DNA from: a virus
Virus record (IMG/VR): IMGVR_UViG_3300034061_000468
Span: 1-39,114 of that record
DNA: 39,114 bases
Strand: one strand, 5' to 3'
Positions 27,148 to 35,932 of this stretch are shown here, in pieces (the first letter of the stretch is position 1; every line of letters begins with the position of its first letter). The position numbers and the translations under genes were made by a program. The notes beneath the pieces were generated by a model. It ran no database searches. It had not been told where the DNA came from and worked only from the letters and a program-made list of their open reading frames with translations.

Positions 27148-27162
27148 GTCTAGGGTCTAGAC
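27148..27162. repeat. Palindrome GTCTAG-GGT-CTAGAC, copy 1
   Basis: First of 14 copies, 41 bp upstream of the -35 box of the first early promoter. It is the only copy upstream of a promoter rather than in a leader or after a gene. Confidence 0.95.
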
Positions 27163-27202
27163 GCCTGTCTCTCACTCGCCGTTTCGTTTCCGCATCTAGG
27201 GC

Positions 27203-27232
27203 TTGACACCGTCCTAGGGTTTCGACTACTCT
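27203..27232 (+). promoter_or_regulatory. Early sigma70-type promoter P27.2
   Basis: TTGACA at 27203-27208, then 17-18 bp, then CTACTC/TACTCT near 27226-27232. The -10 is poor, the -35 perfect. It is the first promoter after the probable left end, like the T7 A promoters, and drives the GC-rich gene at 27304. Confidence 0.65.
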
Positions 27233-27242
27233 TCACCCATGG

Positions 27243-27270
27243 CCGATTCCCTGCACGTCGCAGGGATCGG
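27243..27270 (+). promoter_or_regulatory. Stem-loop at the 5' end of the first early transcript
   Basis: CCGATTCCCTGC (27243-27254) pairs with GCAGGGATCGG (27260-27270), 11 pairs with one bulged T and a 5-base loop. There is no U-tract, so it is not a terminator. It begins about 5 nt after the predicted +1 and may protect the transcript end. Confidence 0.65.
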
Positions 27271-27303
27271 ACCTAGTGCCTTGAATCGAAAGAGGATTGA
27301 ACC

Positions 27304-27990
27304 ATGTCCAAGTCTGCAACCGCCACCGTCACGCCCGCCGCGAAGCCCGAAGTGAAGGCCATGCCGAAGCGCATGAAGCCCTTGCACGATGCCCTCATGG
27401 GCGCAGCCTCGACTCTCTCCGGGTCCATGCGGGCGTTCGGCATCGCCGCTATCGCCGCTCTCGATGCGGGATGTCATGCGTTCCTGAGGGTCGAAGCCCT
27501 CCCCTACCTCACGCAAGCCCTGACTTCGCAGGGCATCGCCCGCGCTAGTGCCGACGCATCCGCCCGCATCGCGCTGGTCGGGTGGGCGGCAGGTCCCGAT
27601 GCCATCGAGGGCTTGCCCGCGGATGGGCTTCGGCACCTCGCATCGGTCGGCAAGGACCTGCCCGAAGCGGACCGCAAGTCGGCCATCGTCGCCGCCCTCG
27701 ACCACGCCAAGCGGAACGCGGCCAAGCCCGGCAAGCCGTCGGTGTCGGAATTGCGTGACGCTGCGGGCAAGGGCGCGAACGTCAAGCCCGCGACGGCTCA
27801 ATTGGCAGACCTCGCCCTGAAGTGCGCCAAGGGCGACCACGCTGAGGCCATCGCCTTCCTGCGTGGGGCGATCGAGGCTGTCGAGGCCCAGCGTGTCGAG
27901 GCCAGCGCGAAGCCCGCCAAGGGCGACCCGACCCCGGCGGACATCGCGGCCCGCGCCGCGGCCATCCGGAAGGGCAAGGGCCAAGCCTAA
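27304..27990 (+). CDS. GC-rich first early gene, Ala-rich protein of unknown function
   Basis: A 228-residue protein, over 25% Ala, with Lys and Pro. A disordered, basic N-terminus (residues 1-25) precedes a helical body and an Ala/Lys-rich tail ending RKGKGQA. Base use is unlike the rest of the genome: bases 27541-27600 contain 45 G+C of 60, against 33 of 60 in a capsid gene sample (7861-7920), and codons end almost only in G or C. It is the first gene behind the first host promoter, where T7 makes its anti-restriction protein Ocr, and it is closed off by a terminator. A role in host takeover or anti-defence is inference from position only; no domain is recognised. The GAAAGAGGA ribosome site is 8 bp before the ATG. 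Confidence 0.85.
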   Translation: MSKSATATVTPAAKPEVKAMPKRMKPLHDALMGAASTLSGSMRAFGIAAIAALDAGCHAFLRVEALPYLTQALTSQGIARASADASARIALVGWAAGPDAIEGLPADGLRHLASVGKDLPEADRKSAIVAALDHAKRNAAKPGKPSVSELRDAAGKGANVKPATAQLADLALKCAKGDHAEAIAFLRGAIEAVEAQRVEASAKPAKGDPTPADIAARAAAIRKGKGQA

Positions 27991-27991
27991 C

Positions 27992-33455: not shown

Positions 33456-33494
33456 CCCCCGGTGTCTCCTTGGAGATGCCGGGGGTTTTCTTTT
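33456..33494 (+). terminator. Strong terminator between early block and RNA polymerase gene
   Basis: A stem of about 13 pairs (33456-33468 with 33473-33485; CCCCCGG / CCGGGGG outer part) and TTTTCTTTT. It should stop most early transcription 30 bp before the RNA polymerase ATG. Confidence 0.9.
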
Positions 33495-33505
33495 GCCCCG
33501 ATATT

Positions 33506-33520
33506 GTCTAGACTCTAGAC
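33506..33520. repeat. Palindrome GTCTAG-ACT-CTAGAC, copy 13, at the RNA polymerase start
   Basis: Only 3 nt separate it from the ATG at 33524, so it occupies the ribosome-binding position. The arms extend to TGTCTAG / CTAGACA. Confidence 0.95.
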
Positions 33521-33523
33521 ACA

Positions 33524-35914
33524 ATGCGACAAGGAAAACTCGACAAGGAAATGGTTGAACTGGGCAAGCAGCGGTACCGCAACAGGTCCGACAAGGCGAC
33601 CACGATTGCCGCCGAGAGCAACACCATCCCCGGGCGGATGATGCTGAACCGTTGCACCACCGAACTGACCAAGGCGTTGGCCCTGTGGCTTGCCAAGGCT
33701 GGCTCCAAGGCTGGACGCAAGCACCGCTGTCATCAGTTCCTGTCGAAACTCCCCGAGGAGAAGTCGGCAGTCATCGCCTCCAAGGTAGTCATCGACGCAC
33801 TCAGTCAAGAACGGATGCTGACTTCGACTTGCATCGCTGTCGGTCGCGCCATTGAAGACGAGATCCTGTTGCAGGACTTGGCTGAAAACGACCCCAACTT
33901 TCTGAAAGACATCCAGAAGAAGACCTTCAAGAGTGTGGGTCAGAAGTTCAAGCGTCGGTTTGCCCGTGAAGCAGCCAAGGCCGTCAACCTTGTGACCCAA
34001 CGGTGGGCCAAGGCCGATGCGTTGTCGGTTGGTCTATTGCTGGTGGAGATGCTGGCTACGCACACCGGGATCATTGAGATCCTGACCAAGTTGAACGCCC
34101 GGGGCCGTAGGTACTGCATCGTTCAGCCATCCAAGGACATCCGTGAGTGGATCAAGAAGTGCCACGAATACCACGAAGGTCTTGAGCCGATGTTCCTGCC
34201 CACGATTGAGCGTCCGGTTGACTGGACCAATCCGTGGATCGGCGGCTATGCATCCTTTGAGTGGAAGCCGAGGCCGCTCGTCAAGTCCCGCAGTCGGTCC
34301 TATCAGGAATCGCTGGCGACTTCGCTGTCATCAGATGTGTACGACGCAGTCAACACAGTTCAGAACACCGCATGGGTGGTTGACTCTGAGTGTCTTGAAC
34401 TGGTTCGTGAGTGCTGGAAGGAAGGCTTGACCATCGATGGTCTGCCCCCAAGCCGCGACGAGGAACTGCCTACTAGACCAGTTGATATCGATACCAACCA
34501 AGAGTCTCGTCGGGCGTGGCGCAAGGCTGCTGCCAAGATTCATTTCTTGAACGAGTCCTACGAGTCACAGCGACTGCTGACTCTCAAGTCGTTGTTCGTG
34601 GCCGACAAGATGGCCGAGCATCGACACATCTTCTTCCCACACCAACTGGACTTCAGGGGCCGTGGTTACCCGCTCCCGCTGTTCCTGCATCCCCAGTCGG
34701 TGTCTTACTCCAAGGCCATGCTTCGGTTCGCCAACGGCAAGCCTCTGGACACCGATGATGCAGTCAAGGCTCTGTATATTCACGCAGCCAACAAGTGGGG
34801 CATCGACAAGGAAACCACGGCAGTACGGATTGATTGGGTAGAACGAGCCCGTAGGGACATCATTGCCATCGGTACCGACCCGTGGTCCAATCGAACTTGG
34901 ATTCAGGCTGATGAACCGTTCCATTTCGTGATGGCTTGTCGAGAGTTGGTTGGTCTGTGGAACCAAGGATCCAAGTTCGTCAGCACCCTGCCGATTGGCA
35001 TGGATGCCACCACACAGGGCTTGCAGATCTATTCGATGCTGCTGCGGGATCCTGTGGCCGCTACTGCGACCAATGTCCTGCCGAGTGCGAAGCCAAGCGA
35101 TCCCTACGAGGCTGTGGCCCGGGCTGTGATTGCTCGTCTACAGGCCAGCAACACCGAACTGGATCAGCAGTTGCTGCGACTGGGGATCGACCGAACGACC
35201 ACCAAGCGTCAGACCATGACCCTGCCCTATGGGCTCACGCTGCACTCATGCATCGGCTACACCCGTGAATGGGTCGAGGATCGGCTGCGTAAGGTAGACA
35301 ACCCATTCGGTCTGGAAACCTATAAGCCCATCGCTTATCTGGGCAAGATCGTCTGGGAATCCATCGGTGATGTCGTTGGTTCTGCCCAGCGTGGCATGGA
35401 CTTTATTCGGGGCTGCATGGCTGTCCTGATCGACCACGATGTGACTCCATGGTGGGTGACTCCCATCGGCTTCCCGGTGAAGATGCGGTACGAGAACTAC
35501 GACACCGTCACCGTGTCAACCCGCATCGGGGCCAAGGCCAAGGTTCTTTCGCTGCGGCAGGAGAACGGTCGCCAGTCCAAGCGCAAGGCCATGAACGGTG
35601 GGCCTGCCAACCTGATCCACTCGCTGGACGGCTTTGGCGGGCTTCTGGGGCACACCGTGAACATGGCCCGGGGTCGAGGGGTATCCTCCATTGGAACCGT
35701 CCACGATCAGATCCTGTGCCTTGGGGCGGACTACAAGACCATGTCCCGGAGTGTCCGCGAGGCTACCGTTGAGTTGTTCTCCCGGGACCTGCTTGCTGAG
35801 TTCCATCAGGGGGTCTTGACACAACTACCGGGTTCTGCTATAGTACCTGAAGTGCCAAGGTATGGTTCCTTGGACATCACGAAGGTACTGGACTCCGAAT
35901 ACTACTTCAACTGA
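33524..35914 (+). CDS. Single-subunit DNA-directed RNA polymerase, T7 gp1-like
   Basis: A 796-residue polymerase (T7 gp1 883) that should transcribe the late genes from phage promoters. Motifs: DFRGRGYPLP in the palm; motif A GMDATTQGLQ with D494 (T7 D537); motif B KRQTMTLPYG with K561 and Y569 (T7 K631, Y639), with Pro where T7 has Ala; motif C VHDQ with H727 and D728 (T7 H811, D812), with Gln where T7 has Ser. HSLDG precedes motif C. The start at 33524 has no Shine-Dalgarno site because the palindrome lies there; an in-frame ATG at 33551 follows AAGGAA too closely to be better. A strong terminator lies 30 bp upstream and no host promoter is seen between. A promoter for the next operon lies inside its 3' end. 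Confidence 0.96.
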   Translation: MRQGKLDKEMVELGKQRYRNRSDKATTIAAESNTIPGRMMLNRCTTELTKALALWLAKAGSKAGRKHRCHQFLSKLPEEKSAVIASKVVIDALSQERMLTSTCIAVGRAIEDEILLQDLAENDPNFLKDIQKKTFKSVGQKFKRRFAREAAKAVNLVTQRWAKADALSVGLLLVEMLATHTGIIEILTKLNARGRRYCIVQPSKDIREWIKKCHEYHEGLEPMFLPTIERPVDWTNPWIGGYASFEWKPRPLVKSRSRSYQESLATSLSSDVYDAVNTVQNTAWVVDSECLELVRECWKEGLTIDGLPPSRDEELPTRPVDIDTNQESRRAWRKAAAKIHFLNESYESQRLLTLKSLFVADKMAEHRHIFFPHQLDFRGRGYPLPLFLHPQSVSYSKAMLRFANGKPLDTDDAVKALYIHAANKWGIDKETTAVRIDWVERARRDIIAIGTDPWSNRTWIQADEPFHFVMACRELVGLWNQGSKFVSTLPIGMDATTQGLQIYSMLLRDPVAATATNVLPSAKPSDPYEAVARAVIARLQASNTELDQQLLRLGIDRTTTKRQTMTLPYGLTLHSCIGYTREWVEDRLRKVDNPFGLETYKPIAYLGKIVWESIGDVVGSAQRGMDFIRGCMAVLIDHDVTPWWVTPIGFPVKMRYENYDTVTVSTRIGAKAKVLSLRQENGRQSKRKAMNGGPANLIHSLDGFGGLLGHTVNMARGRGVSSIGTVHDQILCLGADYKTMSRSVREATVELFSRDLLAEFHQGVLTQLPGSAIVPEVPRYGSLDITKVLDSEYYFN
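35816..35844 (+). promoter_or_regulatory. Sigma70-type promoter P35.8 inside the RNA polymerase gene
   Basis: TTGACA (35816-35821), 17 bp, TATAGT (35839-35844). It is among the best -35/-10 pairs in the window and would drive the ssDNA-binding protein and replication genes from host RNA polymerase. Confidence 0.85.
35855..35873 (+). promoter_or_regulatory. Stem-loop at the 5' end of the P35.8 transcript
   Basis: CCAAGG and CCTTGG with a 7-base loop, starting about 5 nt after the predicted +1 and within the RNA polymerase coding sequence. Confidence 0.55.
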
Positions 35915-35917
35915 AGT

Positions 35918-35932
35918 GTCTAGGGTCTAGAC
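35918..35932. repeat. Palindrome GTCTAG-GGT-CTAGAC, copy 14
   Basis: Last copy, 3 bp after the RNA polymerase stop and 16 nt before the ATG of the ssDNA-binding protein gene. Confidence 0.95.

Follow-up and report, generated by a model that had tools for sequence, protein, structure and literature searches.

The window analysed here, the whole 39,114 base pair (bp) virus record IMGVR_UViG_3300034061_000468, carries 14 copies of the palindrome GTCTAG-N3-CTAGAC in its early region, and palindromes of other sequences recur at matching places in related T7-like phages. We refer to the arm sequence and spacer used by a genome as its word. Words are symmetric and uniform within each genome, they differ between genomes and change even between close relatives, and selection acts on their sequence. 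The palindromes coincide with the promoter-like arc of the window, and the word is associated with a gene for a 228-amino-acid (aa) protein, which we denoted gene 1. The palindromes are probably operators. Their reader would be a dimeric DNA-binding protein encoded by the phage, most likely the gene 1 product, and would limit the host RNA polymerase.

Palindromes in the early region of the window

An exact search for GTCTAG-N3-CTAGAC returned exactly 14 matches, spanning positions 27148 to 35932, where none was expected (100 dinucleotide-preserving shuffles, largest count 0). These are precisely the copies listed in an earlier note on this DNA, whose centre counts (GGT 7, ACC 4, ACT 2, GCC 1) were also confirmed. 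The rest of the window has no exact copy. When up to three mismatches were allowed, 15 extra matches appeared, of which three overlapped real sites, and the remaining 12 compared with 11.4 expected. The first and last 127 bases of the window are identical, an end overlap that suggests a complete, circular-mapping genome. The 14 sites are confined to an arc of 22.5% of the circle (chance ~5e-8). The site is a perfect dyad with no preferred orientation. Only the arms are kept between copies, whereas centres and flanks vary, and a copied generic repeat was therefore rejected.

Ten gene starts lie 3-34 nucleotides (nt) downstream of a site, as had been noted earlier (sites 28542, 28967, 29712, 30135, 30940, 31298, 31850, 32656, 33506 and 35918). 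At 30940 and 32656 the site itself supplies the TAG stop codon of the preceding open reading frame (ORF). Sites 27148, 27992 and 28276 differ from this short-leader type, and the first of them ends 141 nt before gene 1. The sites were located by motif search (with Pfam in addition for the genes at sites 8 and 12) and are not assigned to a strand:

27148..27162, site 1, GTCTAG-GGT-CTAGAC, upstream of the possible gene 1 promoter
27992..28006, site 2, 1 nt past the gene 1 stop, before a terminator-like hairpin
28276..28290, site 3, bordering an AT-rich non-coding stretch
28542..28556, site 4, leader of the 28579 gene
28951..28965, site 5, in tandem with site 6
28967..28981, site 6, leader of the 29013 gene
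29712..29726, site 7, leader of the 29747 gene
30135..30149, site 8, leader of a GP88-family gene
30940..30954, site 9, TAG stop of the GP88-family gene and leader of the 30989 gene
31298..31312, site 10, leader of the 31334 gene
31850..31864, site 11, leader of the 31893 gene
32656..32670, site 12, TAG stop of the 32461 ORF and leader of a DUF932 gene
33506..33520, site 13, immediately before the RNA polymerase gene
35918..35932, site 14, leader of the gene at 35949

The gene at 35949 stands where a named relative has its SSB gene, an assignment by position.

Both strands of the genome were scanned for sigma70-like promoters, and the five sites that scored at least 10/12 were all on the + strand and all inside the palindrome arc. 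A laxer scan of the arc alone found six, with no excess over shuffled sequences (mean 4.0, standard deviation 2.1). A possible gene 1 promoter was read by eye; its second hexamer, TACTCT, is weak, matching TATAAT at 3/6 positions, below the 4/6 that the scan needs, and it is hence absent from the scan results. The promoters, terminators and two central genes are as follows:

27203..27232, + strand, possible gene 1 promoter, perfect TTGACA, 18-nt spacer, TACTCT (read by eye)
27304..27990, + strand, gene 1, 228-aa orphan helical protein with a predicted helix-turn-helix (HTH)-like core, candidate reader of the word (ORF, searches, model)
28017..28048, + strand, intrinsic-terminator-like hairpin after gene 1, 14-pair stem (hairpin scan)
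28463..28491, + strand, sigma70-like promoter, 10/12 (promoter scan)
29648..29676, + strand, sigma70-like promoter, 11/12 (promoter scan)
31790..31818, + strand, sigma70-like promoter, 10/12 (promoter scan)
32426..32454, + strand, sigma70-like promoter, 10/12, just before the 32461 ORF (promoter scan)
33454..33487, + strand, intrinsic-terminator-like hairpin before the RNA polymerase gene (hairpin scan)
33524..35914, + strand, T7-like single-subunit RNA polymerase (RNAP), 796 aa (tblastn to annotated phage RNA polymerases)
35816..35844, + strand, sigma70-like promoter, 11/12, within the 3' end of the RNAP gene (promoter scan)

Words and gene 1 in related phages

Relatives were collected by RNAP searches of IMG/VR, which gave 18 loci and then the best 80 of 167, and words were sought de novo as repeated gapped palindromes in each locus, many loci being short or devoid of the early region. 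A word with at least three copies was found in 46 of the 80 loci, compared with 5/80 after shuffling and never more than three copies there, and 27 of the 80 loci had a word with at least five copies. Twenty-seven loci extend 3.5 kb or more upstream of the RNAP gene, and a word of five or more copies was present in 23 of them (shuffled maximum 3); L101 and L102 have their word in four copies. The window's GTCTAG-N3 is used by phages whose RNAPs are 98-99% identical to that of the window, and it recurs at 75% (L088) and 72% (L067) identity. Other words are GTCTAA-N3 and TATAGA-N1 at 79% RNAP identity to the window, TTCTAG-N4 at 73%, TCTAGG-N2 at 72-73%, GTCCAA-N3, GTCTCA-N4, TGAAAC-N3 and AATCCC-N6 at 61-63%, and GTTTAC-N4, TCTGTAG-N2, CTTGTC-N2, TGGGAC-N0 and CGGGGA-N1 at 43-46%. 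No comparable word was found in stretches of 11-34 kb from five named T7-like phages (HTVC031P, HTVC109P, CRP-171, jiawei and MedDCM-OCT-S45-C18), where the maximum was four copies at 5-base arms and two at 6-base arms. A search for further TATAGA phages returned the L038 contig plus one unrelated contig only, and a search for a locus-wide pattern found none.

Sites recur at matching places in relatives, notably before the RNAP gene and, in many lineages, also right after the RNAP stop codon. The clearest case is the pair L037/L038, whose RNAPs are 99.0% identical and whose DNA is 96% identical over 6.1 kb, and whose words are wholly different (GTCTAAG-N-CTTAGAC in L037 and TATAGA-N-TCTATA in L038; the site sequences of the window, L037 and L038 are GTCTAGGGTCTAGAC, GTCTAAGTCTTAGAC and TTATAGAGTCTATAA). 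Ten of the 11 L037 sites could be paired with all ten L038 sites. Five of these pairs have alignable flanks to either side and two have them on one side only; in the remaining three, which lie near gene 1, the flanks cannot be aligned. L038 also has a near-site, TCTAGA-C-TCTAGA at 3219, which is symmetric but is not its own word. A second discordant pair, L048/L097, has RNAPs that are 93.8% identical and the words TCTGGGAC-GTCCCAGA and TCTGTAG-N2-CTACAGA. In L048, L097 and L043, one site lies inside an ORF at a conserved place (...GYRCFRV-[site]-CPAS...), and the encoded residues change with the word, so selection acts on the nucleic-acid word. L069 and L072 make a third discordant pair, with RNAPs 94.3% identical and the words TGAAAC-N3 and AATCCC-N6; the L072 contig holds 3.4 kb before the RNAP gene, and its gene 1 probably lies outside the contig. 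L063, L073 and L111 have TATA-type -10 elements ~6-17 nt ahead of the RNAP start codon, which suggests that their predicted RNAP mRNAs are leaderless or near-leaderless.

Gene 1, which evolves fast, is flanked by sites 1 and 2, with the terminator-like hairpin behind it, and falls within the main stretch over which L037 and L038 cannot be aligned. Six of the 15 L037 ORFs have no blastp match in L038, namely gene 1 and five ORFs of 67-123 aa, and two of the 13 L048 ORFs have none in L097, namely gene 1 and an ORF of 157 aa. In both pairs, gene 1 is the longest of the unmatched ORFs and the only one above 160 aa. Of 38 records, nine were matched by window gene 1, every one with a TCTAG-type word, and in at least one further TCTAG-word record (G022) gene 1 is present but too diverged for this search. 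Gene 1 proteins were read from 23 records, that of L100 containing masked residues. Those of L037 and L118, phages that share the word GTCTAA, are similar at E 7e-119, and no match was seen between those of L037 and L038; searches with the L048 and L097 proteins returned their own contigs only. A profile built from five gene 1 proteins of TCTAG-word phages (A6) found 12 loci, six of them known contigs that supply or duplicate the query proteins and six new (L174, L175, L176, L180, L182 and L183), and all six new contigs have a TCTAG-type palindrome at most 420 bp before or at most 160 bp after gene 1. Word and gene 1 distances were correlated among 17 genomes (Mantel r 0.64, 1/5000 permutations), for which 17 of the 23 proteins were used and the near-duplicates L044, L021, L029, L011, L033 and L049 were left out. 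Because both measures bottom out at deep divergence, we relied on the close pairs.

Two other candidate readers were ruled out. The phage RNAP was dismissed because L037 and L038 have different words with nearly the same RNAP. The 110-aa HTH protein (122-454), which the earlier note had proposed for binding tests, was dismissed because its recognition segment (VSPQLIS) is nearly unchanged in phages with different words, including GTCTAG, TATAGA, TTCTAG and TCTAGG. In L069, L072, L076, L111 and other palindrome phages, the homologous ORF comprises the C-terminal half only. This protein is encoded upstream of the DNA polymerase, and its C-terminal half is the most widely shared part. In many relatives (L040:11472, L088:11935, L067:9393, L083:4847 and similar), an extra palindrome overlaps the end of the HTH gene and adjoins the DNA polymerase; the window is without it. 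An imperfect palindrome, GTCTAGAGCCCTAG, is found at window position 14.

Gene 1 could not be assigned to a family. Pfam and PHROGs searches gave no significant match, the best being an unknown PHROG (E 0.0038, with the L133 protein), and no match to named phages was found. A sequence search of PDB with A5 reached E 0.03 at best, with unrelated names, and Foldseek found nothing in PDB at E<=0.001. In BFVD there was one match at E 1e-4, to an uncharacterised phage protein, and a 'ParB-like' protein at E 0.37. AlphaFold2 models of window gene 1 (pLDDT 78.6) and of its L053 homologue (87.0) are both all-helical. In VIA, these matched Spo0J (Z 5.0 and 5.7, with 109 residues aligned at 5.7), Noc (Z 4.9) and ParB-parS (Z 4.5, 4.9 and 5.2, with 113 aligned at 5.2), all below the reliable level; the matches ranged over Z 4.5-5.7 and 94-128 aligned residues, and unrelated helical proteins scored at similar Z. 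No ParB HTH or KorB Pfam model matched the window protein (E<=0.1) or the proteins of ten relatives (E<=1), and no CTPase domain was recognised in the general Pfam scans, no dedicated search having been made. A ParB-like DNA-binding fold of the modelled gene 1 protein is thus no more than a lead. A dimer would fit palindromes of ~15-16 bp whose centre is free.

Probable operators and alternative explanations

Across 22 loci, we counted 199 exact sites, 26 with one uncompensated arm mismatch and three with a compensated change, where one-arm mismatches were expected at <0.1 per locus; L053, whose word may be better TCTAGA-N1, holds two of the three compensated and four of the 26 uncompensated sites. 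Since defective sites lose one arm and mostly remain uncompensated, selection is on sequence and not on pairing. Among 36 hand-listed loci with words, L114 had no site by the pattern used; in the other 35 RNAP leaders, the predicted -10 element follows the site in 16 and precedes it in 12, with none called in seven, these calls being pattern matches in loci that are not independent, with the L053 call doubtful. The uniform symmetric words, the 26 versus three defects, the sites inside ORFs and the sites on either side of predicted -10 elements support the earlier proposal of operators for a two-fold-symmetric DNA-binding protein. An RNA element, that is, 6-8-bp hairpins in early leaders serving processing, stability or translation, for which T7 RNase III sites are the comparison case, would suit the 10 of 14 window sites in short gaps right before a gene start. 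However, pairing does not need one word per genome, the -10 often follows the site, residues encoded inside ORFs follow the word, and no Rfam family matched in the window; together with the uncompensated defects, these points led us to reject the hairpin, which the earlier note had kept as an alternative, as very improbable. The note had also taken arm changes that preserve pairing as the mark of an RNA element. That criterion cannot separate the two cases, since the symmetry of a dyad DNA operator likewise survives a change of word; within-genome compensation is the better test and argues against RNA. Promoters of the phage RNAP, either T7-like or of the N4 hairpin type, would fit the many copies, the single word per genome and the position of most sites close upstream of genes. 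This explanation, of which the earlier note had listed the N4 form, is hardly credible, since the nearly identical L037 and L038 polymerases go with different words, no exact copy lies outside the early arc of the window, and the sites are symmetric and unoriented.

It is unlikely, though conceivable, that the palindromes are operators read by a different phage protein, such as an accessory early protein, or by a host factor. Such a reader would be in keeping with the accessory ORFs of 67-157 aa that also lack a counterpart in the discordant pairs and with a partial Mantel test that does not single out gene 1. Against it stand the status of gene 1 as the sole ORF above 160 aa without a match in both pairs and the nearby TCTAG-type palindromes of all six new gene 1 contigs. 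L037 and L038, being 96% alike over 6 kb, probably share one host, and if so a host factor is an unlikely reader of their different words. We give a still lower probability to a nucleation role, in which gene 1 would load at the palindromes and spread along or organise DNA for partition, packaging or replication with no local block, as ParB or KorB would. The 15-16 bp sites and the weak structural resemblance to the DNA-binding domain of ParB and Noc point in this direction, and KorB of plasmid RK2 silences promoters from 16-bp O_B sites both near and far (PMC11790492). On the other side, no ParB or KorB Pfam model is among the listed matches, there is no sequence-profile similarity, and most window sites track gene starts one by one.

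Several observations also weigh against the favoured reading of operators read by gene 1. The ParB-like Z values are below the reliable level of the tool, and hhalign of A4 and A5 with a ParB profile (a ParB alignment built in this analysis) was negative. L073 and L074 lack a clear word, and both are among the loci that extend 3.5 kb or more upstream of the RNAP gene. Gene 1 is not alone in lacking a match in the discordant pairs, as the other ORFs of 67-157 aa show, and several TCTAG-word records, some of them fragments, were not matched by window gene 1. L118 (GTCTAA) matches L020 (GTCTAG) at E 1e-12, similar to the same-word pair of the window and L088 (1e-10); judged on sequence, the correspondence between gene 1 distance and word is not strict. 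A partial Mantel test given RNAP identity, for the 11 of the 17 genomes with RNAP, was not significant (r 0.09, 1370/5000). Most deep gene 1 pairs are undetectable, and homology there rests on position. In addition, the tyrosine integrase model PF00589 was not found in the window nor in 21 of the other 22 records; the single positive, L100 (record G040), also has its own palindrome word. The resolvase-type recombinase PF00239 was found in none of nine records searched, including the window. Lysogeny without integration may be compatible with the missing integrase match.

Under the operator reading with gene 1 as the reader, the layout suggests that the gene 1 protein would be made early from a host-type promoter. 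It would bind, presumably as a dimer, the two sites that flank its gene and roughly twelve others, which lie at or downstream of early host-type promoters and in leaders and include those around the RNAP gene. There it would dampen the host RNA polymerase during initiation or elongation, also on the RNAP gene, in the manner of a stoperator or of a repressor with many operators. Such repression might serve timing, as an early shut-off, or immunity to superinfection. A bolder idea, which we put forward tentatively and regard as possible but not probable, is that this T7-like clade, mostly without a detectable integrase, possesses an exchangeable immunity-specificity module for operator-based kin recognition. 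In that case, an early HTH-like protein of hypervariable sequence would be rewritten together with its 10-18 cognate operators, and a phage would silence siblings that superinfect the cell while sparing a neighbour whose RNAP is 99% identical.

Known systems and other features

T7-like phages are usually taken to time early transcription by a simple cascade, and the family is regarded as strictly lytic. In the Streptomyces phage phiC31, inverted repeats called CIR sites are reportedly scattered in the early region and bound by the c repressor; phiC31 is a siphovirus and its repressor is different from the gene 1 protein. To our knowledge, the window clade is represented only by uncultured virus records, and we know of no set of genome-specific words swapped between near-identical genomes.

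The earlier comparison with stoperators was borne out in its core, and the early regulon it implies is a plausible function. Like the stoperators of Cluster A mycobacteriophages (L5, Bxb1), the palindromes are one short motif in many copies with a putative phage-encoded reader, uniform within a genome and varying between genomes. Stoperators are asymmetric and bound by a monomeric two-domain repressor (PMC9283540), and they lie predominantly in one orientation (PMC6550527). The palindromes, in contrast, are symmetric and unoriented, the gene 1 protein has no family match, and the phage is T7-like with no integrase found. The fast divergence of words between close phages resembles stoperator-type immunity systems (PMC6550527). 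With KorB, ParB and Noc there is a weak fold resemblance of the DNA-binding domain, with no profile similarity and a different genetic context. Temperate T7-like phages do exist: in LUZ100 an integrase gene lies upstream of that for the RNAP, and a MarR-like regulator has been proposed to govern the lysis/lysogeny decision (PMC10134795). The window shares the general genome plan of LUZ100, Pasto and HTVC019P. Stoperators, KorB sites and the phiC31 CIRs are precedents for such a layout. As far as our literature searches reach, no published account of this palindrome system was recognised; within that reach, what is new is the group of phages and the family of proteins involved, symmetric sites whose word is specific to each genome, and a word that is rewritten site by site from one close genome to another.

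The clade seems to possess a regulator of its own and a genome-wide network of operators, in which the word is rewritten at about ten places between close relatives. The pairs L037/L038 and L048/L097 are natural swaps that make the evolution of repressor-operator specificity directly testable. Furthermore, a likely function is proposed for a protein family without a Pfam or PHROGs match, and the words offer a potential set of orthogonal repressor/operator pairs.

The window phage is T7-like, its RNAP being ~30-35% identical to annotated autographivirus RNA polymerases (tblastn, 40 listed matches), and megablast with 23 kb of the window matched no named phage. A search of bacterial genomes with the RNAP alignment returned one contig, in a metagenome-assembled genome (MAG) titled Proteobacteria. 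L138 (JAIXOQ010000009.1), a relative with GTCTAG-type sites, sits in a MAG of that title, which is a weak hint of the host and no proof. The proteins of 28579-28938 and 29747-30133 both match phrog_18067 and are probably paralogues, and a palindrome precedes each of their genes. The stretch 28060-28460, between gene 1 and the next gene, is non-coding and partly AT-rich, with a 22-nt direct repeat (28082, 28165), and we would guess that it is a possible replication origin.

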